NCBI GenBank assembly: GCA_018829445.1 | Contig: JAHJTV010000043.1 | Span: 1 to 64,000 of the forward strand | Origin: a bacterium | GTDB taxonomy: Bacteria; SAR324; XYD2-FULL-50-16 | Reading direction: 5' to 3' | Length of the DNA: 64,000 nt | Shown here: positions 5,352 through 47,510 of the stretch, piece by piece | Layout: each line of letters starts with the position of its first letter | Numbering within the stretch: position 1 is the first letter of the stretch | Notes under the pieces: generated by a model | Database searches by the model: none | What the model was told of the DNA's origin: nothing | The model's input: only the letters and a program-made list of their open reading frames with translations | Translations under genes and position numbers: made by a program

Positions 5352-5367
5352 TGCAACAGCCATACCA
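5352..5367 (-). promoter_or_regulatory. candidate sigma-54 -24/-12 promoter for the acetyl-CoA hydrolase/GNAT gene
   Basis: Minus strand TGGTAT-GGCTG-TTGCA, GG-N10-GC spacing, about 100 bp upstream of the start at 5247. Confidence 0.5.
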
Positions 5368-5585: not shown

Positions 5586-5601
5586 TGGTACAACTCATGC
5601 A
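5586..5601 (+). promoter_or_regulatory. candidate sigma-54 -24/-12 promoter upstream of hsp20
   Basis: TGGTAC-AACTC-ATGCA, GG-N10-GC spacing, about 118 bp upstream of the ATG at 5719. Confidence 0.35.
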
Positions 5602-5718
5602 CTTGGTATTCTTAGGGCCGGTCATGCCAAGGCCTGCTATTTTTTTCAATTTTACAGACTAATCCTGGGCCCACCGGAAAATCGATAACTCAGGGGGCTC
5701 AAAAAGAAGGAGGCTAAT

Positions 5719-6165: not shown

Positions 6166-6242
6166 CCCATTAGGCTAATAGTCAAAATGGAATATGTTTC
6201 CATTATCGATGGTATTAATCCACCTAAAAAAGAGCCAAACCC

Positions 6243-6270
6243 GCCAGAATCACCAGTTCCAGATTCTGGC
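6243..6270 (+). terminator. stem-loop downstream of hsp20 (possible terminator)
   Basis: Perfect 9-bp inverted repeat GCCAGAATC / GATTCTGGC with a 10-nt loop; no strong T-tract. Confidence 0.3.
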
Positions 6271-6450
6271 ACTCACACCATTCTCCAGCAAATAGTCGGG
6301 TCTCACTTCAATTGTTCTTACCTCCTTTTACAAAGTGTAAAACAAATCGACAACCAGGCCGAATCACTCCATGCCCGATTTTATTCTGATATGCACTAAA
6401 AGTGTTTATAAAACAATCAGTTAAAGATGTTTTGAGTTCAAAAATCCAAA

Positions 6451-6466
6451 GGGCATACAATTTGCG
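6451..6466 (+). promoter_or_regulatory. candidate sigma-54 -24/-12 promoter for CoA-transferase operon
   Basis: GGGCAT-ACAAT-TTGCG, GG-N10-GC spacing, 61 bp upstream of the ATG at 6527. Confidence 0.45.
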
Positions 6467-6526
6467 ATTAACTGTCAAAGCAAGATGATATTAACCGAAT
6501 AAGGACTCTAACAAAGGAGAATCTAC

Positions 6527-29809: not shown

Positions 29810-31033
29810 ATGGCAAAATCCAAGATTCCAAATATTTATCAATTACCCCAGGATATTATTGAAAGGATCGAAACAACATTAGCGGTATATTATGACAAAA
29901 CTCGAATTCACTCAATAGTTCTTGATAATCAAGGAGAGGTGGTGAGTGATTCTGGAACTCTTTGGATTTGTGATGGTTTCTACTGCAAACACACCGTCAA
30001 ATGTAAGGAAGAGCATCGTCTGGTTCTCAGGGAATCGTATCGCTTGGGCGGACCGTTTGTGCATCTGTGTCATAAGGATTTTGTAATCTGGGGAGTTTCT
30101 ATCACCCGGGATAACACTATCCTTGGAGGCGTTTTATCGGGATTTGTTCTTTTCGAGCAGCATCAGAATCTTCTGCAGGAGTATTTGTTTGAATTTCCGG
30201 GAATAAACAGGAAAGGAATGTTGATATCATCACAGACGGTTAATAGTGCATCCCAGATGTTGTTTACACTTTTCAAAAAAAACAATCTGTTTGATATTGA
30301 TCTGTTTAAAAAACTCGAAAACCGTGCGCATATTCAAAGAGAGATTGCAGAGAAGATAATCGAGAAAAAGAGCAAGGAGGAATACAGCCGTCATGTTATC
30401 TATCAAAAACAGAACAATTTAATCCAGGCCTTGCAGTTTCTGGAGGTGGAAAAAATCAGAAGTGGACTGAACGACGTATTAAGCGAGATTTTTCTGGAAG
30501 GGATAAACAATATCAGCCTATTGAAATTTCGTATGCTGGAATTGTTTGTCCTGATTTCCAGAACCATGTTGGAGATCGGTGGAAATATTGAAGAGTATTA
30601 TCATTTAACCAGCCAATATACAAAAAATACTGAGGATCTAGATGATATTTACTCATTTTCCCTGTGGTTGACAGCAATCTTAAACGATTTCATTGCAACA
30701 GTTACGACGACTCGCAAGAAGCTGGGAACTATCAATCGTGCCATCGATTATATTAAGAATAACCTGGACAAAAAACTGGTGTTGTCAGAAGTTGCACTGC
30801 TGGCTGCCATGTCAGAATCACGATTTTCTATTGCCTTCAAAATGGAGACTGGGCTCTCCTTTTCCGAATTTGTGAATATTACCAGGGTTGAGAACGCCAA
30901 GAAACTGATTCTGGAAAAGAAACTGACCTTTGTGGAGATAACAACCAAACTCGGTTTTTTCGATCAAAGTTACTTTACCAAGATTTTTAAAAAATATACC
31001 GGCAAGACTCCCCGACAATTTAGTACCTTATAA
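29810..31033 (+). CDS. PocR-sensor AraC-family transcriptional regulator
   Basis: 407 aa; PocR-like N-terminus (DSGTLWICDGFYCKHTVKCKEEHR...PFVHLCHKDFVIWGVSI) and C-terminal AraC HTH (FDQSYFTKIFKKYTGKTPRQF). Confidence 0.9.
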   Translation: MAKSKIPNIYQLPQDIIERIETTLAVYYDKTRIHSIVLDNQGEVVSDSGTLWICDGFYCKHTVKCKEEHRLVLRESYRLGGPFVHLCHKDFVIWGVSITRDNTILGGVLSGFVLFEQHQNLLQEYLFEFPGINRKGMLISSQTVNSASQMLFTLFKKNNLFDIDLFKKLENRAHIQREIAEKIIEKKSKEEYSRHVIYQKQNNLIQALQFLEVEKIRSGLNDVLSEIFLEGINNISLLKFRMLELFVLISRTMLEIGGNIEEYYHLTSQYTKNTEDLDDIYSFSLWLTAILNDFIATVTTTRKKLGTINRAIDYIKNNLDKKLVLSEVALLAAMSESRFSIAFKMETGLSFSEFVNITRVENAKKLILEKKLTFVEITTKLGFFDQSYFTKIFKKYTGKTPRQFSTL

Positions 31034-31252
31034 GTTATGTTCTGCATTTTTTGGCAGTTAATACTTAAAAGTATTTATTCACTCTGTCTGGGCTGCAAAT
31101 TGAAAGATTATTACCAAAATAAAAAGGTATAGTCCTATAATCCCCTGTTTTCGGCTTCTATAATTCCTACCAACAGCCAAGCTAAATAATTTTCAGGTAG
31201 AAGCGGTTTTGCCGTTTTTGAAGAGATTGACTTATTGGGCAGAAACTGCGAG

Positions 31253-31276
31253 CTGTCAATCTATAACTATTGACAG
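31253..31276. promoter_or_regulatory. dyad upstream of corrinoid protein gene (candidate operator)
   Basis: CTGTCAAT-N8-ATTGACAG, perfect 8-bp arms, about 30 bp upstream of the ATG at 31308. Confidence 0.35.
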
Positions 31277-31307
31277 ACACTTAATTTCATTTTTTTAGAG
31301 GTGTATT

Positions 31308-31940
31308 ATGGCATTACTACAAGAAATTTCGGAATATATCCAACAGGGTGATATGAATGAGGTCAGCAAACTCACCTCAATGGCCCTGCAACAGAATTTC
31401 AACCCCCAGGAAATCATAGATAATGGTCTTATCGTTGGAATGTCTGCTATTGGAGAGCGTTTTAAAAGAAATGAGGTCTTTGTTCCTGAGATGCTGATTG
31501 CCGCCAGAGCCATGAACAAAGCCCTCGAAATCCTTGAACCCAAAATGGTAAATGCCAAGATTAAAAAAACTGGAACTCTGGTAATCGGCACAGTTGAGGG
31601 CGATCTTCATGATATTGGAAAAAATCTGATTGGAATAATGTTCAAGGGCGCCGGTTTTAATGTTATCGACCTGGGGATTGATGTCTCTGCTGAACGTTTT
31701 CTGGAATCTGCCGTGGATCATAAAGCTGATTTTGTCGGAATTTCTGCGCTGCTCACTACTACCATGGTCAACATGGAGAAAACCATAAAGGAGCTGCGGG
31801 CTAACAACATAACAACCAAGGTCCTGGTAGGTGGTGCTCCCCTGACCGAGAAATTCGCTCATGAGATCGGAGCTGATGGCTACGCCCCGGATGCCGCTTC
31901 GGCAGTAGGTGTCGCCAAATCCTTGATGAATTCCCGTTAA
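31308..31940 (+). CDS. methyltransferase cognate corrinoid protein (B12-binding, MtbC/MttC-like)
   Basis: 210 aa; B12-binding-2 cap plus VEGDLHDIGKNLIGIMFKGAGFNVIDLG (DxHxxG) and GGAPLTEKFAHEIGADGYAPDA. Confidence 0.95.
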   Translation: MALLQEISEYIQQGDMNEVSKLTSMALQQNFNPQEIIDNGLIVGMSAIGERFKRNEVFVPEMLIAARAMNKALEILEPKMVNAKIKKTGTLVIGTVEGDLHDIGKNLIGIMFKGAGFNVIDLGIDVSAERFLESAVDHKADFVGISALLTTTMVNMEKTIKELRANNITTKVLVGGAPLTEKFAHEIGADGYAPDAASAVGVAKSLMNSR

Positions 31941-31976
31941 ACAAGTGTCATGGTTATTAGGCTTTTATTTTGACCC

Positions 31977-32099
31977 GGAAAGGGTGGTGGGTTGATCATC
32001 TGCTCTTCAAATTCGCTTCATCCCGGAGTAAACCCGGAAAACTGTATTGCCATGTTTGAAGCGACCAAGAAATACGGTCTGTATAACCATAATCACTAA
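31977..32099 (+). pseudogene. C-terminal remnant of a UroD/MtaA-family methyltransferase
   Basis: In-frame GKGGGLIICSSNSLHPGVNPENCIAMFEATKKYGLYNHNH* with a stop (TGA) 2 codons upstream. Resembles the C-terminus of UroD-family methyltransferases (GGG.I..SSNSIH.GV.PEN..AM.EA...YG.Y). Confidence 0.7.
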
Positions 32100-32116
32100 C
32101 CTCTACCTGGAGATCC

Positions 32117-33397
32117 ATGCAAAAAGATCCTGAGAACTCGAAACGATACGCTTATTATGTTTTTGGCCTGCTATTCCTGCTGTATATGTTTGATTACATC
32201 GACCGATTGGTGGTTGTTTCCCTCTTTCCCTATATTAAAGAGGATTGGGGGTTAACAGATGCCCAATGCGGCATGTTTGTTTCAACCGTTTACTGGTCCA
32301 TTTTAATCCTGTCGCTTCCCGCCTCTATCCTGGTGGATCGGTGGAGTCGTAGAAAAAGCATTGGAATCATGTCAGTGCTTTGGAGTGTTGCCGCGGTTTC
32401 CTGTGCGTTTACCAACAATTTCAAACAATTGTTCATTGCCAGAACAGCTATCGGTGTCGGTGAAGCCGGATACGCTCCCGGTGGTACCGCTTTGATTTCG
32501 ACCCTGTTTCCTGAAAAGAATCGTGCCAGAATGCTGGGGTTGTGGAATGCCTCCATTCCCTTGGGTAGCGCCCTGGGAATCGGGTTGGGAGCGTTTATTG
32601 CGGAACGATACGGCTGGCGTCATGCGTTTGGTATTATTGCATTGCCCGGTTTACTGGTAGCAATCCTGTTCTTTTTTATCAAAGATTATAAAACCATAGA
32701 ACTCACTAGAAAGGCTGTGGATATAGGGAGCGATCAAACGGTAAAAATGAATGTGCCCGATATCGCCAGACATTTTTTAACAAACAAGACACTAATCTTT
32801 AACAACCTTGCATTTGCTGCCAGTGTATTTTTAACGACGGCGATGATGACCTGGTTACCGACCTATTTTCACAGGGTAAACAATGTACCCATGACGGAAG
32901 CGGGCATCAAAGGTGGCGCCGTGATGTTATTGGCAATCGTGGGAGCGCCTTTAGGAGGATACCTGGCTGACAAGTGGTATGTCCGAAGGAAAACCGCCCG
33001 TCTTATCTTCCCTGCGCTGACCTCATTCTCATCTGCAATTTTCCTTTTTATCGCCTTCACTTTTTTTAAGGGCAATCTGCAATTCACCATCCTGATTTTA
33101 AATGGTATTTTAATTGTCGGGTTCGTTCCGGCTGCTGTCGCTGTCACTCAAGACGTTGTTCATCCGGGATTGAGAGCTGTTTCCCTAAGTCTGAATGTGA
33201 TTATTCAACATATTCTGGGGAGTTCCACCGCGCCGATCGTAATTGGAGCGTTATCAGATGCCTATGGCATCGAAACCGCCATGATATTCCTGCCCATCGC
33301 CCCCGTAATAGCAGGAACTCTCTATTTAATTGCTTCCCGGTTTTACCTGGCAGATCTGAACAGGGTGCAAAATGAGATCAGCCATTTGGCCAATTAA
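32117..33397 (+). CDS. MFS transporter
   Basis: 426 aa; 12 TM pattern, DRWSRRKSIGIMSVLWS loop and ARTAIGVGEAGYAPGG. Confidence 0.92.
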   Translation: MQKDPENSKRYAYYVFGLLFLLYMFDYIDRLVVVSLFPYIKEDWGLTDAQCGMFVSTVYWSILILSLPASILVDRWSRRKSIGIMSVLWSVAAVSCAFTNNFKQLFIARTAIGVGEAGYAPGGTALISTLFPEKNRARMLGLWNASIPLGSALGIGLGAFIAERYGWRHAFGIIALPGLLVAILFFFIKDYKTIELTRKAVDIGSDQTVKMNVPDIARHFLTNKTLIFNNLAFAASVFLTTAMMTWLPTYFHRVNNVPMTEAGIKGGAVMLLAIVGAPLGGYLADKWYVRRKTARLIFPALTSFSSAIFLFIAFTFFKGNLQFTILILNGILIVGFVPAAVAVTQDVVHPGLRAVSLSLNVIIQHILGSSTAPIVIGALSDAYGIETAMIFLPIAPVIAGTLYLIASRFYLADLNRVQNEISHLAN

Positions 33398-33429
33398 TAA
33401 CAAGTTCACTTATATTCTACAAATAAGGC

Positions 33430-35052
33430 ATGGAAGGAAAAGAACTGATAAAAGCGGCAATTGCTCTTAAGAAAACCGAGCGTGTTCCCTGGGTACCTTT
33501 TGTAGGATGTCATGGCGGATCACTGATTGGAGTTAACGCCACCGATTATCTAAAGTCGGAAAAACATATTATTCAGGGCACAGAAGAAGCAATTAAACGT
33601 TACCAACCGGATGGAATTCCCATCGTTTTTGATCTGCAAATTGAAGCTGAGATCTTGGGGTGTGACTTGCTCTGGGCGGATGAAAATCCTCCGGCGGTAT
33701 CCAGTCATCCCCTGGCCAATGGGAAGCTTTTGGCAGATCTAAAGATCCCTCAGTCTTCAGATGGTCGCTTGCCGATAGTTCTTAATGCAACCCGGGTTTT
33801 AAGGAAGCGCTACCCGGATTTGGCGCTTTATGGATTGATCACGGGGCCTTTCACTCTGGCACTTCATTTGTGCGGGTCCGATATATTTATGCAGTTGTAT
33901 CAGGATGAACAGGGAGTAAAAGAGGTCCTTGAATTCTGCAAACAGGTCTGCCTCGCCATGTCGGAATACTACATAGATGCTGGATGCGACATCATTGCCG
34001 TTGTGGACCCCATGACCAGTCAAATCGGTCCAAAACACTTTAAGCAATTCATTACCGATCCGATGAAAGAGATTTTCGCATTTATAAAAGAGAAACAAAC
34101 GCTGAGTTCTTTTTTTGTCTGTGGCCATGCACAGCAAAACATTGAAGCCATGTGTGATTGCAATCCAGATAATATTTCGGTGGACGAGAATATACCCCTG
34201 GAATATGTCCGGGACATCTGTCTTGCAAGAAACATCAGTTTTGGGGGTAACCTGCAGTTAACCATGGTACTTCTCCTGGGAAACGAAAACGATGCCATGC
34301 TAAATGCCCAGGACTGTGTCAATTCCAGCGGCGGTAAAGGATTTATCCTTGCTCCCGGTTGTGACTTACCCTACTCTACTCCCCCGAAAAATATTCAGGC
34401 TGTTACTGAGTATCTTCGTGATCCCTACCAGCGGGAGGTTGCTCTCACAATTCAGGATCATGAAAAAGCTTCGGATAGCCTTGACATGAGCGAATATGGG
34501 AAAACGGATAAGATCATCATTGATATTATCACCCTGGATTCCGAATCTTGTGCGCCTTGTCAATACATGGTCGAATCGGTACAACGGGTAATTCCTCAAT
34601 TCAAACACATTGTTGAGTGGCGGGAACATAAAATAAAATATCGTGAATCCCTTAAATTCATGGCTTCGTTAATGGTGAAGAATATACCAACCATCTGTAT
34701 TGACGGAAAAATTACGTTTGTCTCCCGTATCCCTCCCCAAGATGAACTCATTGCCGCCATTCAAAAACGGATATTTGAGAAATTAAATTATAAAATTAAG
34801 CTTAAAAAAGGCTCCTTACTGGTTTTCGGCAAAGATGCCAGTGAGTGTGAGAAAATCACGCCCAATGTAGAGCAGGCCATTAACGAATTAGGAGCCGATG
34901 TTAGTATCCAATATATAACGGATGAGAAAGAGATTCTGTCATACGGCATAGCTGTCACTCCAGCTGTTATGACGGCCAGATACAAGGTCAAATCCGAAGG
35001 AATCGTGCCTTCCATAACTGTTATCAAAGAATGGATCAAAGAAATTCACTAA
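33430..35052 (+). CDS. UroD/MtaA-family corrinoid methyltransferase fused to two C-terminal thioredoxin-like domains
   Basis: 540 aa; UroD-like (ERVPWVPFVGCHGGSLIGVNATDYL, GCDIIAVVDPMTSQIGPKHF, FILAPGCDLPYSTPPKNIQAV); then IITLDSESCAPCQYMVESVQRVIPQF (CxxC thioredoxin-like); then LLVFGKDASECEKITPNVEQAI...EILSYGIAVTPAVM. Confidence 0.85.
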   Translation: MEGKELIKAAIALKKTERVPWVPFVGCHGGSLIGVNATDYLKSEKHIIQGTEEAIKRYQPDGIPIVFDLQIEAEILGCDLLWADENPPAVSSHPLANGKLLADLKIPQSSDGRLPIVLNATRVLRKRYPDLALYGLITGPFTLALHLCGSDIFMQLYQDEQGVKEVLEFCKQVCLAMSEYYIDAGCDIIAVVDPMTSQIGPKHFKQFITDPMKEIFAFIKEKQTLSSFFVCGHAQQNIEAMCDCNPDNISVDENIPLEYVRDICLARNISFGGNLQLTMVLLLGNENDAMLNAQDCVNSSGGKGFILAPGCDLPYSTPPKNIQAVTEYLRDPYQREVALTIQDHEKASDSLDMSEYGKTDKIIIDIITLDSESCAPCQYMVESVQRVIPQFKHIVEWREHKIKYRESLKFMASLMVKNIPTICIDGKITFVSRIPPQDELIAAIQKRIFEKLNYKIKLKKGSLLVFGKDASECEKITPNVEQAINELGADVSIQYITDEKEILSYGIAVTPAVMTARYKVKSEGIVPSITVIKEWIKEIH

Positions 35053-35978
35053 ACAGTATCCCTTTCGTCTTGGTTACGGGATTCCTGGGAAGCGGGAAAA
35101 CAACTCTTCTGAAGCGTTTTCTGAATGCCCATGCGGATGAATGGAAAATAGCCGTCATTCAAAATGAGTTTGCCAACGCCAATGTTGATGGCCAGGAATT
35201 AAAAGAATCCGGGAAAACCTTTAAAATAGTAGAAATAAACAAAGGCTCGGTGTTTTGTGTCTGCCTGCTATCCAGCTTTGTTCACTCCCTGGCTGATCTG
35301 ATAGAATCATACCAACCGGATGTTATCATATTGGAAGCCACAGGTTTGGCCGATCCCATTGCAATCGGCCAACTTCTTTCAGCAAAAGAACTTAATGAAA
35401 AACTATACCTGGCCCATGTCTGGTGTGTTGTCGATTCAACCTCCTTCCTCGACTTGGAGCCCCGGGTTCAACGGATGACACATCAAGTACGAATCGCCGA
35501 CACAATTATTCTTAATAAAACAGACGTTGTATCACAGGAACATGTGACCAGAGTGGAAAAAAGAGTAGTCGAGGTAAACTCTCACGCCAATATAATTCGA
35601 GCACGTTTTTGTGAACTGCCTCATGGTATCTTAAATGAAGCGTTCATTCAAAGACCAGATGACAATAAAAATCGATCAAACACACAGGACATTAAACCCC
35701 ATGGTCCGCTATCGGTCTGTTCTGCCGTATTACGAACAACTGAGACTATTTCAAGGAGAAACCTGCAAAACTTTCTGCAACTGTATGAAAAAACCGCATA
35801 TCGTATCAAGGGATATGTCAATTTGACAGATCAAACAATAGTATCTGTACAATCCTGTTTTGGCCAAACTACCCTCCAAACCATCTTGAAAGAACCGGGT
35901 CCCACCGAATTGATCGCCTTGGGACCTCTGATTGACCCTCATGAATTCACAAGAGAGTTTAAAAAGATGACCAGATAA
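35031..35978 (+). CDS. CobW/UreG-type GTPase (metallochaperone-like)
   Basis: 315 aa; VTGFLGSGKTTLLKRFL Walker A, GSVFCVC (CxCC-like), NKTD; overlaps the upstream ORF by 22 bp. Confidence 0.93.
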   Translation: MDQRNSLNSIPFVLVTGFLGSGKTTLLKRFLNAHADEWKIAVIQNEFANANVDGQELKESGKTFKIVEINKGSVFCVCLLSSFVHSLADLIESYQPDVIILEATGLADPIAIGQLLSAKELNEKLYLAHVWCVVDSTSFLDLEPRVQRMTHQVRIADTIILNKTDVVSQEHVTRVEKRVVEVNSHANIIRARFCELPHGILNEAFIQRPDDNKNRSNTQDIKPHGPLSVCSAVLRTTETISRRNLQNFLQLYEKTAYRIKGYVNLTDQTIVSVQSCFGQTTLQTILKEPGPTELIALGPLIDPHEFTREFKKMTR

Positions 35979-36254
35979 AATTTATACTCGACTACAACTC
36001 TGAACTCCCTTCTTAATTCTGATAAAGTCATTTGATGACTCCCGGGAGGGATATTCCTGCCAAAACAAACTTTCCTTTTGGATACGCATAAGTTAATATT
36101 TTGAAGCACAAGAACAAGTGAATAAGAACAAGGTAAGTTTACTCAGCTTTTCTTAATATGAGCTGCTAAAAATATAGCAACTGCATATGTCTGGATATTG
36201 GGCTTGAACCCGGCACAGGTATTATTCAATTTTTTTTGTAGACTGAAGAAGCTT

Positions 36255-38585
36255 ATGATTCTTTCAACCCGTTTTCAGCGCATCAAAAACGAACTGCTTT
36301 CATACCCCATTCACCTCTGTATTGAAAGGGCTCGGTTGGTTACAGAGTATTTCAAACAGTTCGATAATGCCAACGAACCTATGGTGATAAGGAAAGCCAA
36401 AGCATTCCGTCATTTAATGCGAAAGAAGTCGATCAAAATCTATCCGGACGAGCTCATAGTCGGTAATATTGGCAAATACAGGAAATCAGCCATCATGCAA
36501 CCGGAGTTGTCCGGTGTATTTTCCTGTCAGGAGCTGCTTTGGATCGATAAACGCAAAACCACACCATTTAAAATCTCCTGGGGAGATCGCCTGAAATTGC
36601 TCAAAGGGGTCATTCCCTACTGGCTTCCCCGTAATATGATCATCCGCGCTTTCTGGCCCGATCTGAAACACTTAAGTCAATACATTGTCGATCAACTAAA
36701 TCCCAATTATTACCTGATAAACGAGGTTGCCGGAATCGGACATTTTATCCCCCATTATGAAAAGGCAATAAAAATAGGGCTTAAAGGTTATCTTGAACAA
36801 CTGAAAAATGGTAAAACCGATCTATTCCGGGCAATGGCGATTACAGCCGAAGCGGTTATCGACTATTCCAATCGTATGTCCTGCGAAATAGAACGATTGG
36901 TACAATTGGAAACCGACAAAAAGCGATCACAGGAACTGGTTTCCCTGGCAGAGATCTGCAAAAAGGTGCCCGAAAATCCGGCTGAAACCTTCCATGAAGC
37001 CCTGCAGGCACTTTGGATCTGCCACATGGCAGTCTGCCTGGAAGGGGTAAACTCAGCAGTTTCCTTCGGTCGACTGGATCAAATCCTATACCCCTATTAC
37101 AAAAAAGATCTGGAAACAGGCAGAATAACACCGCAACAGGCAAAGAAACTGCTGCTCTGCTTTTCCGCAAAAACAACCGAGCATGTATTCCTGATCTCCG
37201 AAAAAATGAGTAAATACCACGGAGGTTTCCTGGTTGCCCAGGCTGCCATTGTCGGGGGAATAGACAGTAGGGGAGAAAATGCCGTTAATGACCTCTCCTG
37301 GATCTTGCTTGACGTGATGGAAGAGTCGGGATTGAGAGATCCCAACTATCAGGTCAGGATTCACAAGAACACCCCCAGTGAATTTATACGACGGGCATTG
37401 GATGTTGCCAGGAAGGGAACAGGGTCGCCTGCCTTCTTTTGTGACGAGGCAACCGTCTCCTCTTTAACAGCACACGGGTATAGTGAAGAGGAAGCGAATA
37501 CCTATGGCATTGTCGGCTGTGTTGAACCCACCATACCCAGCAGAAGTTTTTGCTCCACTGATGCGGCACTGGTTAATCTGCCGGTTTGTCTTGAACTGGC
37601 TTTAAACCAGGGAAAACGGATTAACGGCAGAAAACAGATTGGTATAAACACCAGAAATCCTGGGTTGTTTCATGACATGGAAGATGTAATCACCGCTTTC
37701 GAAAAACAGGTTAGCCACTTGGTAAAAAGGCTGATAAGAGATATCCAGGTGATCGAAAAGGGCAATCGAAACTATCATCCCACTCCGTTCTCCTCCATGC
37801 TGGTAGATGGCTGTATTGAGAACAATAAAGATATTACTGCCGGCGGTGCCCAGTATAACTCAAGTGGGATACAGGGAGTTGGAGTGGCTGATGTCTCGGA
37901 TTCGCTGGCGGCCATTGAGGAAGTAGTGTTTCAAAATAAGCGGTTTTCCCTCAAAGAGATTATCGATGCCTTGAAAACAAACTTTGATCAGAACGAGCCC
38001 CTCCGGTCTTACCTGGTCAAAGCCACCAAATTCGGAAACGATCACGGTTCTGTAGACAGATTTGCAGAAAGGACAATGTGCATATTTCATGCGGCACTGG
38101 GAAACCATCAAAACTCCAGAGGAGGCCCTTATATTCCCGGGTTTTATTCGTCAACTTGTCATGTGGGATTCGGTGAACAGACAGCGGCGCTACCCAGCGG
38201 AAGGAAAGCCGGCCAGCCTTTTGCTGCCAGTATGAGCGCCGGCAATGGAATGGATCGTTCCGGTCCAACCGCTGTTTTGAATTCTGTGGCGTCAACCGAC
38301 CCCAGATTATCACCCAACGGGTACGCCCTTAATTTGAGTTTCGATCCCCATACTCTCAAAGGGGAGAAGGGAGTGATGATTCTGGATTCCCTGCTTCGCG
38401 GATATTTTGAAAAAGGAGGCATGGAACTTCAACTGAATGTACTGGATCATCAGGTTCTCGAAGACGCCTTGAATAATCCCGGTAAACACCCCGGGATCGT
38501 GGTGCGGGTGGCAGGCTATTGCGCCTTTTTTGACGACCTACCCCACGAAGTAAAAAAAGAGGTTATCAACCGCAACAGAACCTAA
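36255..38585 (+). CDS. glycyl radical enzyme (PFL-like family, eliminase/decarboxylase type, substrate unassigned)
   Basis: Active-site GIVGCVEPTIPSRSFCSTDAAL and C-terminal glycyl-radical loop VVRVAGYCAFFDDLPHEVKKEVINR. Internal ATG 36255 preferred over the track's 36198. Confidence 0.93.
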   Translation: MILSTRFQRIKNELLSYPIHLCIERARLVTEYFKQFDNANEPMVIRKAKAFRHLMRKKSIKIYPDELIVGNIGKYRKSAIMQPELSGVFSCQELLWIDKRKTTPFKISWGDRLKLLKGVIPYWLPRNMIIRAFWPDLKHLSQYIVDQLNPNYYLINEVAGIGHFIPHYEKAIKIGLKGYLEQLKNGKTDLFRAMAITAEAVIDYSNRMSCEIERLVQLETDKKRSQELVSLAEICKKVPENPAETFHEALQALWICHMAVCLEGVNSAVSFGRLDQILYPYYKKDLETGRITPQQAKKLLLCFSAKTTEHVFLISEKMSKYHGGFLVAQAAIVGGIDSRGENAVNDLSWILLDVMEESGLRDPNYQVRIHKNTPSEFIRRALDVARKGTGSPAFFCDEATVSSLTAHGYSEEEANTYGIVGCVEPTIPSRSFCSTDAALVNLPVCLELALNQGKRINGRKQIGINTRNPGLFHDMEDVITAFEKQVSHLVKRLIRDIQVIEKGNRNYHPTPFSSMLVDGCIENNKDITAGGAQYNSSGIQGVGVADVSDSLAAIEEVVFQNKRFSLKEIIDALKTNFDQNEPLRSYLVKATKFGNDHGSVDRFAERTMCIFHAALGNHQNSRGGPYIPGFYSSTCHVGFGEQTAALPSGRKAGQPFAASMSAGNGMDRSGPTAVLNSVASTDPRLSPNGYALNLSFDPHTLKGEKGVMILDSLLRGYFEKGGMELQLNVLDHQVLEDALNNPGKHPGIVVRVAGYCAFFDDLPHEVKKEVINRNRT

Positions 38586-38648
38586 GGGGTCAAGTCTCGT
38601 TTTGTTGCAACTTAGAGAGTTGCAACAAAACGAGACTTGACCCCTTAG
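38582..38648. repeat. perfect 31-bp inverted repeat (long hairpin) between GRE gene and radical SAM gene
   Basis: CTAAGGGGTCAAGTCTCGTTTTGTTGCAACT-TAGAG-AGTTGCAACAAAACGAGACTTGACCCCTTAG; contains the GRE stop codon (38583-38585). Confidence 0.95.
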
Positions 38649-38666
38649 CTTAGCATAAGGATATTT

Positions 38667-39584
38667 ATGGCGGCATTCGAACCGGTTTATCTGGAAACCA
38701 AAAGGAAGGGTTTATTGAGGGAAAAAATAAACAAAGCTCGGGCTTTGTTAAAATCGTGCACAATCTGTCCGCGGGAGTGTGAAGTAGACCGTCTTGCGGG
38801 AGAGGTGGGAGAATGTAATACAGGGGAGGATGCGTGGTTATCCAGTTTTAATTCCCACTTTGGGGAGGAACCTCCCCTGGTGGGAATGTTCGGTTCGGGT
38901 ACCATCTTTTTTACTCATTGCAATCTAAAATGTAATTTCTGCCAAAACTACGACATAAGCCATGATGGAAATGGAGCAGAGGTAGGCATGGCCCAGCTGG
39001 CAACTACGATGATGATTCTTCAGAACAACGGTTGTCACAACATCAATTTTGTCACTCCCACCCATGTGGTTCCACAGATATTGGCAGCCCTGGACATGGC
39101 AATTGAGATTGGTCTATGCGTTCCTCTAGTATACAACTCCAGTGGTTATGACAAAGTGGAAACCCTTCAGCTGTTGGATGGTGTCATTGATATCTACATG
39201 CCGGATTTTAAATTCTGGGATGCCGGAATTGCCGAATTGACCTGTCATGCTCCTGATTACCCGGAAGTAGCTCGAAACGCCCTTGTTGAGATGCATCGGC
39301 AGGTCGGGGATCTTCAGTTTGATGAAAACGGAATAGCCCAAAAAGGGTTGCTGGTGCGTCACTTGGTGATGCCATCCGGGGCTGCGGGAACCAAGGACGT
39401 TATGAAATTTATTGCAGAGAAAATTTCGCCCAACACCTATGTCAATGTTATGGATCAATATCGACCCTGTGGTAAAGCCTATCATGTGGAGCAACTGTCG
39501 AGTTCTCTTTCAAGACAGGAGTTTAAACAGGCAGTCAAGGAGGCAAAACAAGCCGGTATCTCTCGGTTTGCTGTGCCCTTGTAA
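38667..39584 (+). CDS. radical SAM protein, PflX-like (putative GRE-activating-enzyme-like family)
   Basis: 305 aa; CTICPRECEVDRLAGEVGEC N-terminal cysteines; GSGTIFFTHCNLKCNFCQN (CxxxCxxC); NSSGYDKVETLQLLDGVIDIYMPDFKF. Confidence 0.9.
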   Translation: MAAFEPVYLETKRKGLLREKINKARALLKSCTICPRECEVDRLAGEVGECNTGEDAWLSSFNSHFGEEPPLVGMFGSGTIFFTHCNLKCNFCQNYDISHDGNGAEVGMAQLATTMMILQNNGCHNINFVTPTHVVPQILAALDMAIEIGLCVPLVYNSSGYDKVETLQLLDGVIDIYMPDFKFWDAGIAELTCHAPDYPEVARNALVEMHRQVGDLQFDENGIAQKGLLVRHLVMPSGAAGTKDVMKFIAEKISPNTYVNVMDQYRPCGKAYHVEQLSSSLSRQEFKQAVKEAKQAGISRFAVPL

Positions 39585-39610
39585 AAACGTATAATATTAA
39601 AAGGATCTAA

Positions 39611-40723
39611 ATGAAGATATCCCCTTTCAAACTGGAACGATATTTTGCAAAATACGAATTCAACGCTCCCCACCTACTCTGTTGTTCGGACTGTGAATCG
39701 ATGTCCATCGGCGACCTGCTGAAACTGGGTCAGGTATCGGAAGCAACTCTGAGTAATGTCTGGTTAGGATATACCGAATCACAAGGTGATCCCGCTTTGC
39801 GTGAAGAGATAGCCCAGCTGTACAGTGGGGTGAATCCGGAACAGGTTCTGGTTCATTCCGGTGCTGAGGAACCAATTTTTAATTTCATGAACGCTATTTT
39901 GGAACCAGGCGATCATGTAATTGTGCTCTATCCCTGTTACCAATCATTAACCGAAATTGCAGAATCGATTGGTTGTGAAGTTACTTATTGGAAACTGGAG
40001 AATTGTCCGGACTGGAAGGTGGATTTTGATATTTTCAAGGATCAGATCAGGCCAAATACCAAGCTGGTTATTGTGAATACACCCCATAACCCCACGGGAT
40101 TCCAGTTTACAAAAGAGGAGTTTAAAACTCTTTCCGATCTTTCCAATGAGCATGGTTTTTTTATCTTTTCCGATGAGGTCTACCGCTATCTGGAGTATGA
40201 TGAAAATGACCGGTTGCCTTCAATCTGCGATATTAATGAAAACGGGCTGGCCCTGGGAGTTATGTCCAAGACCTTTGGATTGGCCGGATTGAGAATCGGG
40301 TGGATTGCAACGCAAAACAAAGAGATCTACCATAAGCTGGCAGCTTACAAGGATTATACGACCATCTGCAACAGTGCCCCCAGTGAATTTCTGTCGACCC
40401 TTGCCCTTAAAAACAAAGAGAAACTCATCAAAAGAAACCTCGGCATTGTTAACAACAACCTCAGTTTGTTAAATCAGTTTTTTGATCAATACCAAGACCT
40501 GTTCAGGTGGAGCATGCCAAAAGCCGGGCCAATCGCATTCCCGGAACTCAGGCGGGGAGAAATCACCAAGTTCTGTCATGATCTGGTAACTAAAGCGGGG
40601 GTTCTTCTTTTGCCGGGAACCTTGTATGACAAGTCCAGCAACAACTTTAGAATCGGATTCGGCAGAACAACCATGGAGCAGTCTTTGAACAGGCTTGAGG
40701 AGTATTTGTCTGCAACCCTTTAA
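39611..40723 (+). CDS. PLP-dependent aminotransferase class I/II
   Basis: 370 aa; NTPHNPTGFQFTKEEF, SKTFGLAGLRIGW lysine motif, RIGFGR. Confidence 0.93.
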   Translation: MKISPFKLERYFAKYEFNAPHLLCCSDCESMSIGDLLKLGQVSEATLSNVWLGYTESQGDPALREEIAQLYSGVNPEQVLVHSGAEEPIFNFMNAILEPGDHVIVLYPCYQSLTEIAESIGCEVTYWKLENCPDWKVDFDIFKDQIRPNTKLVIVNTPHNPTGFQFTKEEFKTLSDLSNEHGFFIFSDEVYRYLEYDENDRLPSICDINENGLALGVMSKTFGLAGLRIGWIATQNKEIYHKLAAYKDYTTICNSAPSEFLSTLALKNKEKLIKRNLGIVNNNLSLLNQFFDQYQDLFRWSMPKAGPIAFPELRRGEITKFCHDLVTKAGVLLLPGTLYDKSSNNFRIGFGRTTMEQSLNRLEEYLSATL

Positions 40724-40725
40724 AC

Positions 40726-40758
40726 AAAAGGGGCCAAGATGACTTGTCCCCCTTTTTC
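40726..40758 (+). terminator. Rho-independent-like terminator after aminotransferase gene
   Basis: AAAAGGGGCCAAG-ATGA-CTTGTCCCCCTTTTT stem-loop, immediately after the stop codon. Confidence 0.65.
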
Positions 40759-40810
40759 TGTATATTACTGTTTCAATATATCAGTGTTTATACCGCAGTT
40801 TATTTTAGCA

Positions 40811-41944
40811 TCACTCAATGCGATCAGGTATATGCATGGCATCGGTTGCGGTTGCCGGAAATACCGACAGTGCCGTAGTAGTTGGCCCATCAGTGAAGTA
40901 CAACAAAAAGTTAGCCAGGTCTGTTTGCTCAGCTGCTGTTAGGTCCAGATATGTGGCAACGTCAGCAGCACTGGTCCAGGTTGCGGTTTCAGCGGAGCAG
41001 TTGGCAGCATCCGCTTCCAACCGGGTTGCGTTATTGATGCAGATTCCACTGGGTGTTGCATTTGACTTTGCAAAATAATAACCGGATTCAAAGACACCTG
41101 CTGTGCTTATCCCCCCTTGTCCGGCAGCCATTACATAGTTAGAACCGGTGCCATGGAAGCGAACCAGGAATTTGCGATTTGAGAGGTTCACTATCAATAC
41201 GGTGCGAAACGTACTGTCATCAGCAGCGGTATCATTGATATTGGTGGTGTTAAAAGCAAGTACATGATCATTGCTGGCATCGGTTTTGGACAAATACGCC
41301 TGATAAATATCGGATTGATCCCAACCTGCAGTGGCCGTATCGTGTTTTCTGGTAACAATCATGACATTTTTGGCAGAGGTATCGGTTTGAGTGGCAAAAT
41401 ACTGGGTTTGTGAACTGTAAGTTGAAGATCCGATGCAGTTCAACTGGCTGAAATAGTCAATCAGGTAGGTACTCGTATCACCACTGGAATCGTCAGTCTT
41501 AAAGGAACTTGCGTTCACAGTAGCTGCCGTGCAACTTGAGGCGAAATAGTTCAGAACATTTTCCATGTACATTTCAGCATGGTAGATAACACCGATAAGG
41601 GTTGTTACCGTGTATTTATTGGTATTAATTTCAGGCGTAACTCCTGTAGGACAGTTATTATCGCTATCAGGCATATAACACTCCAGCTTGAAGAAATTGC
41701 TGATAACCTGATCGCTAATAACATCCCCAGCAGTAAGAGAAGGGGCGCTGCTTGAGGATGAACCTTCAATCGCAGGCAAGGCCCTGGCCGCAGAATTAGC
41801 AAAATCCAGACTGTTGGAGCTTGCGGTCGTACTTGTTGTCGATTCATCATCATCGTCACTCGTCGCACATCCTACTACGAAAAACAAGGATGCAATCATT
41901 GAGAGTGTTATTATGCCAAACCATAAGATTCTGTTCTTTTTCAT
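40811..41944 (-). CDS. putative secreted lipoprotein of unknown function
   Basis: Start taken at MKKNRILWFGIITLSMIASLFFVVGC (lipobox) at 41944; Ser/Thr-rich linker; no recognised domain. Confidence 0.7.
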   Translation of the reverse strand: MKKNRILWFGIITLSMIASLFFVVGCATSDDDDESTTSTTASSNSLDFANSAARALPAIEGSSSSSAPSLTAGDVISDQVISNFFKLECYMPDSDNNCPTGVTPEINTNKYTVTTLIGVIYHAEMYMENVLNYFASSCTAATVNASSFKTDDSSGDTSTYLIDYFSQLNCIGSSTYSSQTQYFATQTDTSAKNVMIVTRKHDTATAGWDQSDIYQAYLSKTDASNDHVLAFNTTNINDTAADDSTFRTVLIVNLSNRKFLVRFHGTGSNYVMAAGQGGISTAGVFESGYYFAKSNATPSGICINNATRLEADAANCSAETATWTSAADVATYLDLTAAEQTDLANFLLYFTDGPTTTALSVFPATATDAMHIPDRIE

Positions 41945-42351
41945 ATCAACTCCATTAATACTAAAAAGTGTATTATCCCTTGAATTAGAGAATGTGCCCA
42001 TTGTATCACTCCTTCAGAACAGATGTCAAAATATTGTTTTTTTGTTTCCCTGCAGGTACTTAACAAACGATAAAGGGGAAAAGAGACTATCTCCTTTAAG
42101 CCATTGATTTCTATAGGGTAAGATCAGACACTAGTGAGGCATTAGTTGGAAAATAACAACATGGATTTGAGGTACAGGGGCGTTTAGGAATAATGATAAT
42201 TTAATTCTGTCTGATTGATTTGATTGTGCTATTGCTTCTTCAATAAATCATATAAGCTTGGCGAGTTGAAGAAAAAGGGCTCAAGTTTGATATTTATGTA
42301 TTCTATGTGAGGGTAAAAACTCATGGAGAGATTTGATCCCCTTCCCAAGAC

Positions 42352-43305
42352 CTATTCGAAATTGGCAGTCCCGATGTTGTTATTGGTATTAAGCTGAATG
42401 GTTCCGCATTTACCGATTTTACAAAAATTACTCATGTCGCTGGAGATAGTATTATTTTCGATTGAATTATTTTGAAAACTCAGTTTTCCGAAATTGGCGA
42501 GTCCGCCTACCGAATTATGACTGATATTGCTGTTGTACATCTCCAGTTCTCCCATGACAGAGATTCCGCCACCCTCTTTCGTACTTTTATTATGGGTGAT
42601 GTTTGAGTTTTTAATGATTGCCTTGGTATCGCAAGATATAAACAGTCCACCTCCCCGGGAATCCGAGGTATTGTAACTGATTTCACTGTTTTCAATCACC
42701 AAAACGCCACCCTTCTCATTTTGAATACCACCACCGGCCCCGCATGCTTTCCCGATTGGACCGGCCCTCTCAGCGTAATTTCTACTGATCTTGCTGTTGA
42801 GAATGGTCAGCGTGCCCTTATTCCAGATCCCTCCCCCGGAAGTTCTTGCCAGATTTTCGATTACCAGGACATTTATGAGGGTCAAGCTTCCCAGGTTGCT
42901 GATTCCTCCCCCGGAACTCGGGTAACCTTTGGGTTTCCCGTGTCTGATGGTTAAATTTTCAAGAGTGACTTCAGCTCTCTCTTGAATCTGAAACACCCTG
43001 TCACCAGCCTTACCTGGTTGAGTGTGGGCCTGTACAATCGTACCTGGTATCGTGTCGCCTATAATCTTTATACTCTTTCCCAGTGTTATTCCACCTTCGG
43101 TGTGAATGGTGTCCTTAATGAGGATTGTATCACCTGCTCGGGTACGCTCATCATCATTTGCCGCTTGAATAGTTGTGAATTGACAACCTGCCTTACAGAC
43201 CGTTAACTCCTGCATCACTTTTAATGCGCTGTTATCTGCGTACAAGGCTGCGGACCACAATCCCAGCAGCATCAATAAACCTGGTTTGAATTTATTAATT
43301 GGCAT
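42352..43305 (-). CDS. secreted right-handed parallel beta-helix (polymorphic outer membrane/pectin-lyase-like) protein
   Basis: 317 aa; signal peptide, repeats of GGGI.N.G.L.I.NS.IS.N type. Confidence 0.8.
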   Translation of the reverse strand: MPINKFKPGLLMLLGLWSAALYADNSALKVMQELTVCKAGCQFTTIQAANDDERTRAGDTILIKDTIHTEGGITLGKSIKIIGDTIPGTIVQAHTQPGKAGDRVFQIQERAEVTLENLTIRHGKPKGYPSSGGGISNLGSLTLINVLVIENLARTSGGGIWNKGTLTILNSKISRNYAERAGPIGKACGAGGGIQNEKGGVLVIENSEISYNTSDSRGGGLFISCDTKAIIKNSNITHNKSTKEGGGISVMGELEMYNSNISHNSVGGLANFGKLSFQNNSIENNTISSDMSNFCKIGKCGTIQLNTNNNIGTANFE

Positions 43306-43330
43306 TATCTGGTTTTGATAATAGGTTAGT

Positions 43331-44533
43331 TTATTTAAAATCGGACTTTTGAATTTTAGTCACAGTCACTTCATACACAGTCTTCAAGGGTATCCCTTTT
43401 TGTTCAGCCAGTCTTTTACAGTCCTCATATTCCGGTGAAATCTTTAAGATTTTTCCGTTTTGAAGGGCAGCTTTCGCTTTGACAGGTCCGAACTCTGTTT
43501 CGATCGCCATGATTTTTCTTTCAAGGCAAGCGCGATCCACAGGAATTCTTCTGATTCCCAGGGTTGAGGTTTCATTAAAAATGATGGCTTCAAGTTTTTG
43601 AAAATCCTGTTGATCACTGAGTACATTCAATAAAACCCCGGGCCGACCTTTTTTCATGATAATATTGGTCATAAAAACATCCAGTGCCCCCTGTTCAAAT
43701 AATAGTGGCAACAGATAGGAGTATATTTCCGGGTTCATATCATCAATGTTGGTTTCCAGCATGATCAGCTTATCAACAGCTATGGTATTTTCTTCAGATT
43801 CCTCACCCCAGAATACACGCAGCAGGTTCGGGATACTGAATTCCTTTTTACCGGTTCCATATCCTGTTTTTTGGATGATCATGGCAGGGAGGGAGCCAAA
43901 TTTTTTAGCAATGGTTTTTATAATAGCAGCCCCTGTCGGCGTTACCAACTCTCCGACCACATCGGTTGAATAGATGGGAACGTTTTTGAGGATGTCTGCT
44001 GTTGCAGGGGCTGGAACCGGTAACAGTCCATGAGCGCATTTAACCGTTCCGGAACCTACGTGCAAAGCAGATGAATAGATTTTATCGGGTTTTAAAATAG
44101 AAAGGCAGATTGCCGTCCCTACAATATCAACAATCGAATCGACGGCACCGACTTCATGAAAATGGATCTCGTCGATTGACTTTCCATGGACTTTCGCTTC
44201 CGCCTTTGCAATAGTATTAAAAATCTGTTTGCTTAGGTTTTTTGCATCATTATCGATATTACTTTTGTCAATAATTCCTTCAATTATCTTCAGGTTTCTG
44301 TGTGGATGGTGGTGATTTTGGTGATGCGAATGTTCTTCGAGAATCACATCAAAATCGGTTCCCGAAATCCCGTTTTTCACCTTTTGAGTGACCTTAAGCT
44401 CATATCCAGGTAGATTAAGGGATTTTAATTGAGCAATCAGTTCTTCCTTTTTTACACCCAAATCGATGAGGGCGCCTATAGTCATATCTCCGCTAATCCC
44501 TGCGAAGCAGTCAAAATATAAGATCTTATCCAT
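43331..44533 (-). CDS. larC: nickel-pincer cofactor nickel insertion protein LarC
   Basis: 400 aa; ILYFDCFAGISGDMTIGALIDLG, His-rich HSHHQNHHHPH, ETNIDDMNPEIYSYLLPLLFEQGALDVF. Confidence 0.95.
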   Translation of the reverse strand: MDKILYFDCFAGISGDMTIGALIDLGVKKEELIAQLKSLNLPGYELKVTQKVKNGISGTDFDVILEEHSHHQNHHHPHRNLKIIEGIIDKSNIDNDAKNLSKQIFNTIAKAEAKVHGKSIDEIHFHEVGAVDSIVDIVGTAICLSILKPDKIYSSALHVGSGTVKCAHGLLPVPAPATADILKNVPIYSTDVVGELVTPTGAAIIKTIAKKFGSLPAMIIQKTGYGTGKKEFSIPNLLRVFWGEESEENTIAVDKLIMLETNIDDMNPEIYSYLLPLLFEQGALDVFMTNIIMKKGRPGVLLNVLSDQQDFQKLEAIIFNETSTLGIRRIPVDRACLERKIMAIETEFGPVKAKAALQNGKILKISPEYEDCKRLAEQKGIPLKTVYEVTVTKIQKSDFK

Positions 44534-44539
44534 GATTTC

Positions 44540-45307
44540 TTAAGATTTTATCGCTTTTTCAGCGATCTGATTAATAACAGATGCGGAGAAACCCGCACCA
44601 AAACCATTATCGATATTAACGACGGTTACACCGTTGGCGCAGCTGTTAAGCATGGTCAGCAGAGCTGCCAAACCACCAAAACTGGCTCCATAACCGACGC
44701 TGGTTGGCACTGCGATTACCGGTTTGTCGGTCAATCCAGCCACTACACTGGGAAGGGCTCCATCCATCCCGGCGACAACCACCAGAACACTGGCATCATC
44801 GATTTTACTTTTGTTGGACAGTAATCGATGAATTCCCGCCACACCAACATCAAACAACCTGGCGACCGTATTCCCCATCATCTCTGCGGTGATGGCTGCT
44901 TCTTCGGCAACCGGAATATCAGATGTTCCTGCAGTGATAATCAGAATTTTGCTAATCGTTTTCTCAACCTCCCGGTTACGGATGATTACAATTCTGGCCA
45001 GTTCGTGATAAACGGCTTTTTCGCTGAGAGATTTCAGAGCCTGATAAATCTCTTTATTTGCTCGGGTTGCCATGATATTGACATTTTTATCCAGCATATT
45101 GGCCGCAATGCTTGTGATCTGTTCAATGGTTTTGCCCTGGCTGAAAATGGTCTCCGGGTATCCGGTCCGTATCTGACGATGGTGGTCTACCATAGCAAAA
45201 CCAAGGTCTTCGAAAGGAAGATTCTTAAACTGGTCCAGAGCCGATTCAACGCTGAGACTATTCTCTTTAATCTGCTGTAATAACACTCGTATTTTATCTT
45301 CGTGCAT
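44540..45307 (-). CDS. larB: nickel-pincer cofactor biosynthesis carboxylase LarB
   Basis: 255 aa; DHHRQIRTGYPETIFSQGKT, ITAGTSDIPVAEEAAITAEMMG, VVAGMDGALPSVVAGLTDKPVIAVPTSVGYGASFGG. Confidence 0.96.
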   Translation of the reverse strand: MHEDKIRVLLQQIKENSLSVESALDQFKNLPFEDLGFAMVDHHRQIRTGYPETIFSQGKTIEQITSIAANMLDKNVNIMATRANKEIYQALKSLSEKAVYHELARIVIIRNREVEKTISKILIITAGTSDIPVAEEAAITAEMMGNTVARLFDVGVAGIHRLLSNKSKIDDASVLVVVAGMDGALPSVVAGLTDKPVIAVPTSVGYGASFGGLAALLTMLNSCANGVTVVNIDNGFGAGFSASVINQIAEKAIKS

Positions 45308-45330
45308 GTTGTCTCGTTACCTGCTGATTA

Positions 45331-46134
45331 TTAATTCAGATTACCGGTTTTATACCCTTCAAGATCAAAGGTAACATATTTGAAACCGTAGGATTTAAGA
45401 GTCCCATTTACACGGTCCATCATTTCCGGGTCAAAGAAAAACTGACGTTGAGAAACATCTACCTCTATTCTGGCTATATCCTGATGATACCTGACACGAA
45501 CCTGGATCAAGCCAAGAGATCTCAGGTAATCTTCTGATTTTTCAATCTGTAGCAGGGCTTCTTTCGTAATTTTCTGATGATAAGGAATCCTTGAAGCCAA
45601 ACATGCCAGGGATGGTTTGTTCCAGGTCGGAAGACCCAGTTCTTTTGACGCCAGACGTATTTCTGCCTTGCTGAAATCACATTCAATCAACGGGCTGACA
45701 ATGCTTAATTCCTTTAATGCTCTCATTCCCGGTCTGTAATCGGACAGATCATCGATGTTGGATCCGTCAAGAAGTATTTCGATTTTCTCTTTGTGCATCT
45801 GTTTTAATAATAGACCAAAGATATTGGTTTTACACAGATAACAGCGCTCTCTTTTATTATTAAGCACATCGTCATCAAGCTGATCAATGGTTATAATCTC
45901 ATGCCGAACTCCTATCTCTTTGGCTATCTCCCGTGACTGTCTGAGTTCTTCCCGTGGAAAAAAGATGCTGTCAACAGTCAGCGCCAGACTATTCTCTCCC
46001 AGAACCTGAAAAGCAATTTTTGTGAGGAAGGTGCTGTCAACTCCTCCGGAAAAAGCTATGGCAACACTTCCGTAAGACTTAATCAGACTCTTAAGATTAT
46101 ATATTTTTTTTTCAAGACCCATCACAAAAAACAA
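45331..46134 (-). CDS. larE: ATP-dependent sulfur transferase LarE (PP-loop)
   Basis: 267 aa; AFSGGVDSTFLTKIA PP-loop, RCYLCK, TWNKPSLACLASRIPY. Confidence 0.95.
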   Translation of the reverse strand: MFFVMGLEKKIYNLKSLIKSYGSVAIAFSGGVDSTFLTKIAFQVLGENSLALTVDSIFFPREELRQSREIAKEIGVRHEIITIDQLDDDVLNNKRERCYLCKTNIFGLLLKQMHKEKIEILLDGSNIDDLSDYRPGMRALKELSIVSPLIECDFSKAEIRLASKELGLPTWNKPSLACLASRIPYHQKITKEALLQIEKSEDYLRSLGLIQVRVRYHQDIARIEVDVSQRQFFFDPEMMDRVNGTLKSYGFKYVTFDLEGYKTGNLN

Positions 46135-46301
46135 GCTGAAGTTTTAACTTGAGAAACCGGTTCTGAGTATCTGTCGTAATAGCAAAACAATATCAATGCG
46201 GGGTGTCATTAGCAAATGGTATTGTGATTCTTTTCGATTTGTGCTTCGCTGGTAAAGAAAAACGAATGATAGCAAGCTAATCGTTATATAGAGACAACCG
46301 A

Positions 46302-47510
46302 ATGTTTAAAACTTCAACCTCAAAACTTAACGGCACCCTAGCCCTGGTAAAAACCGATATGTCCGATGTAGCCGTAATAAAGTGTGAAAGTTATGATTAC
46401 AACCTGGTGAGACAGGCTGTTAAAAAAGGAATTGACCTGCTGGGAGGAACCGGCAGTTTTGTGAAACCGGGTGAAAAAATACTGCTAAAACCAAACTTAC
46501 TGGTCGCCGAAGTCCCTGAAAAGTGTGTTACAACGCATCCGGCAGTCTTTCAAGCAGTTTGTGAGCTCTTTGGCAAAGAGGAGGTTGAGCTTTCCTTTGG
46601 TGATTCGCCGGCATTCGGGAGCATGCAGAGAGCAGCCAGGAAAGCGGGGCTTCTGGAAATTGCGGAACAGCTTGGAGTAAAACCGGCGGATTTTAAAAAC
46701 GGGGAATCGGTTTTTTTCGAAAAAGGGATTCAAAACAAGAAATTTATAATCGCCAAGGGGGTTTTGGAAGCTGATGGTCTTATCAGCCTGCCGAAATTAA
46801 AAACACACGGACTGGAAAGAATGACCGGCTGTATCAAAAACCAGTTCGGTTGTATTCCGGGAGTGCTGAAAGGAGAATTTCATGTCAAATTGCCTGGAGC
46901 TCACGATTTCGGGAAGATGCTGGTGGATCTCAATAACTTTGTTAATCCCCGGTTGTATATAATGGACGGAATTCAGGCGATGGAAGGCAACGGTCCGCGG
47001 GGCGGAAAACCTAAACAGATGAATGTATTGCTGTTTTCCAGAGATCCTGTGGCACTTGACGCTACCGTTTGTCGGCTCGTTGATCTTGATCCCCAATATG
47101 TGCCAACTATCCAGTATGGTAGTGAAACAGGGGCCGGAGTTTACCTGGCAGATGAGATAACAATCCTGGGCGACAGCATTGAAGATCTGAAGACAACGTC
47201 ATTTGATGTTAAAAAGCGACCGATAAAATCTTTTGATAAACAAGCGCGGGGATTTTCTGGGTTCATAAACAACCGCCTGGTTCCTAAACCCTTCATCAAT
47301 AAGGATATCTGCACTCAATGCGGAACCTGCGTTTCCATGTGTCCTGTTGATCCGAAAGCGGTGGACTGGTTGGACGGTAACAAAGATCTGCCTCCCGTCT
47401 ATCATTATGATGAATGCATCAGATGCTATTGCTGCCAGGAGCTTTGTCCTGATGCTGCCATTGAGCTGAAAACGCCCCTGTTACGACGAATTATGGGGCT
47501 TATTCGTTGA
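46302..47510 (+). CDS. DUF362 domain protein with two C-terminal [4Fe-4S] ferredoxin motifs
   Basis: 402 aa; ILLKPNLLVAEVPEKCVTTHPAV, CTQCGTCVSMCPVDP, CIRCYCCQELCPDAAI. Confidence 0.92.
   Translation: MFKTSTSKLNGTLALVKTDMSDVAVIKCESYDYNLVRQAVKKGIDLLGGTGSFVKPGEKILLKPNLLVAEVPEKCVTTHPAVFQAVCELFGKEEVELSFGDSPAFGSMQRAARKAGLLEIAEQLGVKPADFKNGESVFFEKGIQNKKFIIAKGVLEADGLISLPKLKTHGLERMTGCIKNQFGCIPGVLKGEFHVKLPGAHDFGKMLVDLNNFVNPRLYIMDGIQAMEGNGPRGGKPKQMNVLLFSRDPVALDATVCRLVDLDPQYVPTIQYGSETGAGVYLADEITILGDSIEDLKTTSFDVKKRPIKSFDKQARGFSGFINNRLVPKPFINKDICTQCGTCVSMCPVDPKAVDWLDGNKDLPPVYHYDECIRCYCCQELCPDAAIELKTPLLRRIMGLIR

Follow-up and report, generated by a model that had tools for sequence, protein, structure and literature searches.

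The locus described here lies at positions 29810-40723 of the window, the 64,000-nucleotide stretch of DNA that was analysed, which is the start of contig C30 in the draft genome (7.67 Mb; G000) of a SAR324 bacterium assembled from a metagenome. Genes for corrinoid-dependent methyl transfer stand there beside a gene for a glycyl radical enzyme (GRE), and a first-pass annotation had joined them into a single pathway. All the genes that it named are found as intact, co-directional open reading frames whose Pfam and NCBIfam domains agree with the names given; they are listed below with the block on the opposite strand that follows them.

29810-31033, + strand: AraC-type regulator with a PocR domain (PF10114, 46 bits; HTH_18, PF12833, 66 bits)
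31308-31940, + strand: corrinoid protein, methyl carrier (B12-binding_2, PF02607; B12-binding, PF02310; DLHDIG)
31980-32099, + strand: C-terminal remnant of a UroD-type substrate-specific methyltransferase (MT-I), with homology over codons 31980-32084
32117-33397, + strand: ACS-like transporter of the major facilitator superfamily (MFS) (PF07690; best NCBIfam model TIGR00893, below cut-off)
33430-35052, + strand: UroD protein (MtaA-like second methyltransferase, MT-II) fused to a CAPC-bearing thioredoxin-like domain and a second such domain (PF01208, PF13192; alignment of five homologs)
35031-35978, + strand: CobW-type GTPase, putative metal chaperone (PF02492, PF07683), overlapping the previous gene by 22 bases
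36255-38585, + strand: uncharacterised GRE of the CxE type (PF02901, 590 bits; PF01228, 88 bits; GCVEP and RVAGY)
38667-39584, + strand: PflX-like radical S-adenosylmethionine (SAM) protein (weak PF04055 and TIGR04337; no Pfam or NCBIfam model above cut-off)
39611-40723, + strand: pyridoxal phosphate-dependent aminotransferase-fold protein (PF00155; best PRK07324, GntC and VioD, all below cut-off)
43331-46134, − strand: larC, larB and larE, for nickel-pincer nucleotide synthesis (PF01969, 525 bits; PF00731; PP-loop family)

Orthologs of these genes were searched for in 52 SAR324 genomes of the same class, among plasmids and, by a single narrow pattern scan, in public genomes; SAR324 cluster bacterium PL23b_bin.69 (JANQGX01; G047) is the closest relative to carry a named record. 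The protein at 31308-31940 combines both B12-binding domains with a DxHxxG motif, as in corrinoid three-component systems. Behind its gene, only the last 35 codons of an MT-I are left, so that the remnant and the lack of a substrate-specific methyltransferase that had been noticed earlier are both real: 31 of the 35 residues are shared with the C-terminal end of a complete UroD methyltransferase encoded on contig C67 (locus L037, 5787-6869; E = 2.6e-20), and the two genes are 82% identical over 100 bases. On C67, a gene for a corrinoid protein (71% identical to that of the window) is followed by one for a DUF819 transporter and then by the intact methyltransferase gene; contig C37 of G047 encodes, in this order, a corrinoid protein, an MT-I with 59% identity to that of C67 and an MFS transporter with 60% identity to that of the window. 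Based on this order and on the match to C67, the window most likely once carried corrinoid protein, MT-I and MFS genes in succession, and a deletion removed all of the MT-I but 35 codons. The original operon would then probably have encoded a corrinoid protein, a UroD-type MT-I, an MFS importer, the UroD-thioredoxin MT-II and CobW.

With its MT-I so reduced, the operon might be a dead remnant whose other genes are decaying and no longer contribute anything. This is unlikely, as every other gene of the operon keeps a full-length open frame, the operon holds the only UroD-thioredoxin gene of the genome, and a compatible MT-I with its closely similar corrinoid partner exists on C67. The other missing part, a reductive activator of the RACo or RamA type, is found nowhere in the window, as had been noted before; a search of the rest of the genome located two RACo (RamA-like, PF14574) proteins, one on C78, where it adjoins CO-dehydrogenase/acetyl-CoA synthase subunits, and the second on C75.

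In its composition, the operon resembles the MtaA/CmuA-family systems and the mec cassette of dichloromethane fermenters, in which a PocR sensor stands beside UroD methyltransferases and MecA itself carries PocR (PMC9768040); common to all is a cluster that combines a PocR-domain sensor with a corrinoid protein and methyltransferases of the UroD type. It differs from them by the near deletion of its MT-I, by the absence from the cluster of a tetrahydrofolate methyltransferase and a reductive activator, and by an MT-II that carries fused thioredoxin domains and has CobW as its partner. It also shares an SCMT-like UroD protein, a corrinoid protein and the lack of a tetrahydrofolate methylase with the type 1 mlp gene clusters, whose products are Mlp2, Mlp3 and, in most cases, a RACE protein (PMC10418091, Kountz and Balskus), but the window has one SCMT-like UroD protein and contig C30 encodes no RACE; the combination of Mlp2, Mlp3, corrinoid protein and RACE that defines such clusters does not occur on C30.

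Corrinoid methyl-transfer genes that have lost their substrate methyltransferase do, as the first-pass annotation had it, lie next to a CxE-type GRE: the enzyme has both GRE domains, with the Cys-x-Glu and glycyl-radical loops in register with those of its paralogs. Its mechanical open reading frame begins at a TTG at 36198, and the ATG at 36255 agrees with the start of its ortholog. The genome holds ten PF02901 matches, and the window GRE shares 29-35% identity with its paralogs. It reaches the cut-off of no characterised NCBIfam equivalog, whether CutC (choline TMA-lyase; 441 bits for a cut-off of 1050), hydroxyproline dehydratase (529 for 1100), sulfopropanediol dehydratase (476 for 1000), indoleacetate decarboxylase (323 for 1100) or 4-hydroxyphenylacetate decarboxylase (271 for 1150), and also stays below that of TIGR01774 (631 for 678). 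The best match in the PDB is PFL2 of A. fulgidus (2f3o); with GREs of the PFL2/glycerol dehydratase type (2f3o, 1r8w), the window enzyme shares full-length matches of about 500 bits and both loops, but it falls under all the NCBIfam equivalog and TIGR01774 cut-offs and has no adjoining activase. The Cys-x-Glu motif in the GRE family suits an eliminating lyase or a dehydratase, and the window GRE is probably one of these. Choline or a methylamine as the substrate was considered and rejected: the enzyme scores far under CutC, the stretch encodes no MttB-type protein, the lost MT-I is of the UroD type, and the nearest NCBIfam matches of the MFS protein, below cut-off, are organic-anion transporters. 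An AlphaFold model of the GRE, built on a two-sequence alignment, had a mean predicted local distance difference test score of 33.7 and was not used for a fold search.

Only one ortholog of this GRE was found, in G047 (69% identity), which was also the sole return of the public-genome pattern scan; G044, G045 and G046 have none. The ortholog is flanked in G047 by genes for two GNAT proteins, one GxGYxYP protein and one GPH symporter, with neither a corrinoid gene nor an activase beside it; this genome carries its corrinoid genes on different contigs. In the comparison of gene neighbourhoods, proposed as a check on the first-pass annotation, parts of the corrinoid operon recur together in relatives, and the adjacency of GRE and corrinoid genes is not kept in G047. 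In plasmids, the search yielded GREs 37% identical to that of the window next to a canonical activase; the one plasmid locus read had no corrinoid genes. These GRE-activase pairs (L062, NZ_CP127890.1, 7950-11325) are carried by plasmids of Acinetobacter and Moraxella, an unusual location as both genera are mainly aerobic.

The radical SAM and aminotransferase genes recur as a pair in G047 (79% and 67% identity) and G046 (77% and 65%). In G047, the pair directly adjoins larC, larB, larE and a DUF362 gene, and in G045, the radical SAM gene adjoins the lar and DUF362 set, in neither case with a GRE next to it; in the window, the lar genes begin 2.6 kb downstream of the pair. The link to the lar genes, as judged by synteny, is local to the family: in more distant SAR324 genomes, both genes are present on different contigs. 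The radical SAM gene has conserved neighbours, larC/larB/larE and the gene of a DUF362 ferredoxin protein, in the window (38667-47510) and at loci L031 and L033, with the aminotransferase gene included in the window and in G047. Between the GRE and radical SAM genes lies an inverted repeat (38579-38651), absent from the first-pass annotation, with arms of 34 nt, 97% complementary, and a 5-nt loop (z = -11.7); no other copy of its core, GGGTCAAGTCTCG, occurs in the loci compared. Rfam models, applied to the loci of five relatives, matched only a group II intron.

The position of the radical SAM gene directly downstream of the GRE gene is that of a GRE-activating enzyme, but the protein differs from the activases described by TIGR02494: it has no match to this model, it lacks the DGPGIR seen in the genome's activases, and its relatives adjoin lar genes. 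Six TIGR02494 activases are encoded in the genome, on C1, C15, C75 (two), C78 and C81, each adjoining another GRE, and the model has no match on C30. No GRE neighbourhood of the radical SAM gene is conserved, its orthologs in G045 and G046 having no adjoining GRE and the GRE of G047 lying 18.5 kb off; the lack of a TIGR02494 match and the lar synteny speak against the PflX-like protein as a dedicated GRE activase. A looser version holds that GRE and radical SAM are an ancestral pair, the latter being a non-canonical activase, and that the corrinoid operon was inserted upstream here while other genes came between the two in G047. The 80-bp spacing in the window, the same order and strand in G047, 18.5 kb apart, and the absence of a canonical activase beside either GRE copy are consistent with it. 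It is nonetheless improbable, as the radical SAM protein has no TIGR02494 match and its synteny is with lar genes, and as it occurs without an ortholog of the GRE in G044, G045, G046 and more distant SAR324 genomes. The GREs on C44, C84 and C91 also lack an adjoining activase, so that activation in trans would be common in this genome.

Because of these comparisons with SAR324 relatives, the locus is likely to consist of three independent modules that share a strand and not of one pathway:

module 1, 29810-35978, + strand: PocR-regulated corrinoid methyl-transfer operon with its MT-I almost wholly deleted
module 2, 36255-38585, + strand: lone CxE-type GRE
module 3, 38667-40723, + strand: radical SAM/aminotransferase pair, belonging with the neighbouring larCBE block

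Several points weigh against this division. The separation of the GRE from corrinoid genes rests on one ortholog (n = 1); in G047, the GRE is on the same strand as the radical SAM/aminotransferase pair and upstream of it, which makes an ancestral neighbourhood possible. A terminator-like site was looked for in the 277-bp gap between the CobW and GRE genes and none was found, so that read-through is possible; promoter and terminator scans gave scores no higher than those of shuffled sequences. In the UroD-thioredoxin protein, the position of the zinc-ligand His of MtaA is taken by Phe. Furthermore, GRE and corrinoid genes adjoin twice in this genome, on C30 and on C15, where a run at 561-7267 (L034) encodes a TetR regulator, a small protein, an HpfG-type GRE, an activase, a UroD protein and a corrinoid protein. 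Under uniform random placement, about 0.002 such adjacencies would be expected, and two or more at a probability of 5e-6, figures that overstate the case because catabolic genes cluster and are not placed uniformly. The C15 GRE reaches the HpfG equivalog (1120 bits for a cut-off of 1000), and its counterpart in G045 has an adjoining activase, with neither UroD nor corrinoid genes next to it. Based on gene order, we conclude that the GRE-corrinoid adjacency recurs in this genome and is not conserved where testable (once each). An in-frame TGA in the HpfG-like GRE of G045 was considered as a selenocysteine codon and rejected, since it does not fall at a cysteine.

The single pathway of the first-pass annotation, in which a methylated or choline-like compound would be imported, cleaved by a PflX-activated GRE and demethylated by the corrinoid proteins while the aminotransferase takes the amino group, draws on the co-directional genes, the second GRE-activase-UroD-corrinoid run on C15, the improbability of the adjacency under uniform placement and the position of the GRE upstream of the radical SAM gene in both genomes that hold it, but is highly improbable given a GRE ortholog without corrinoid genes, a radical SAM/aminotransferase pair that occurs by lar genes without an adjoining GRE, a radical SAM protein outside TIGR02494, a GRE far under the CutC cut-off, a C15-type GRE in G045 with an activase and no UroD or corrinoid neighbour, and the destruction of the operon's own MT-I. 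With three modules, the appearance of a new GRE-corrinoid pathway is cleared away and the missing parts find a place, the MT-I on C67 and the reductive activators on C78 and C75.

From what was directly observed (gene content, the MT-I remnant with its intact counterparts, and synteny), we infer the following reactions, partners in trans and PocR-dependent regulation for the modules. Module 1 probably still supplies the carrier, the importer and the MT-II. A substrate of the organic-anion type would enter through the MFS transporter, and the UroD-type MT-I of C67, acting in trans, would load its methyl group onto the corrinoid protein, whose cobalt, once oxidised to Co(II), would be re-reduced by a RACo encoded elsewhere. 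The UroD domain of the UroD-thioredoxin protein would then pass the methyl group to a thiol; zinc would be loaded by CobW, and either reductant or thiol would come from the thioredoxin domain. For the GRE of module 2, activation would come in trans from a canonical activase encoded elsewhere in the genome.

What remains of interest is the recurring UroD-thioredoxin-CobW unit, fused in SAR324 and split in another SAR324 genus, with a UroD-thioredoxin fusion also in a Subdoligranulum variabile record. The UroD domain matches MtaA (PDB 4ay7, E = 2.6e-25) and scores 140 of the 400 bits set for the MtaA equivalog; of the His-x-Cys...Cys zinc ligands, both Cys positions align and are kept in the homologs, one of which has a likely selenocysteine codon, and the His position is Phe. 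The pair of UroD-thioredoxin and CobW genes recurs in G047 on C42 (72% and 54% identity), and a corrinoid gene adjoins a UroD-thioredoxin gene on C24 of the same genome; in G045 (C250), the parts are separate genes for a UroD protein, two small thioredoxin-like proteins, CobW and a corrinoid protein. The return of the combination in G047 and G045 supports a functional unit. The Subdoligranulum variabile plasmid record, from a gut Clostridium (L063, OY725850.1, 119-1495), holds a shorter UroD-thioredoxin fusion, 43% identical to that of the window, with a CAAC thioredoxin motif.

The MtaA-like UroD gene of G045 (C250; L021, 8342-9371, − strand) has an in-frame TGA at the invariant zinc-ligand Cys (LAPG[C/U]DLP); the frame stays homologous past the TGA, and a hairpin begins about 14 nt downstream. 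The protein, from another SAR324 genus, appears to be a candidate selenoprotein with selenocysteine at the zinc-ligand position; a 2026 review of selenoproteomes (PMC13188914) uses neither 'MtaA' nor 'uroporphyrinogen' in its main text. Bacteria without known coenzyme M synthesis commonly encode MtaA-like proteins, and what accepts the methyl group in them is an open question (PMC10418091). A speculative and rather doubtful proposal is that the UroD-thioredoxin-CobW unit is a coenzyme M-free second methyltransferase, passing the methyl group to or via a thioredoxin thiol, with zinc loaded by CobW and a selenocysteine zinc ligand in a relative; if true, it would say what replaces coenzyme M for the bacterial MtaA-like proteins.

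Among the paralogs of the window GRE, those on C84 (L041, 6361-9408) and C91 (L042, 6905-9952) are 1015 aa long with long N-terminal extensions, which resemble the small protein encoded before the GREs on C15 and C81.

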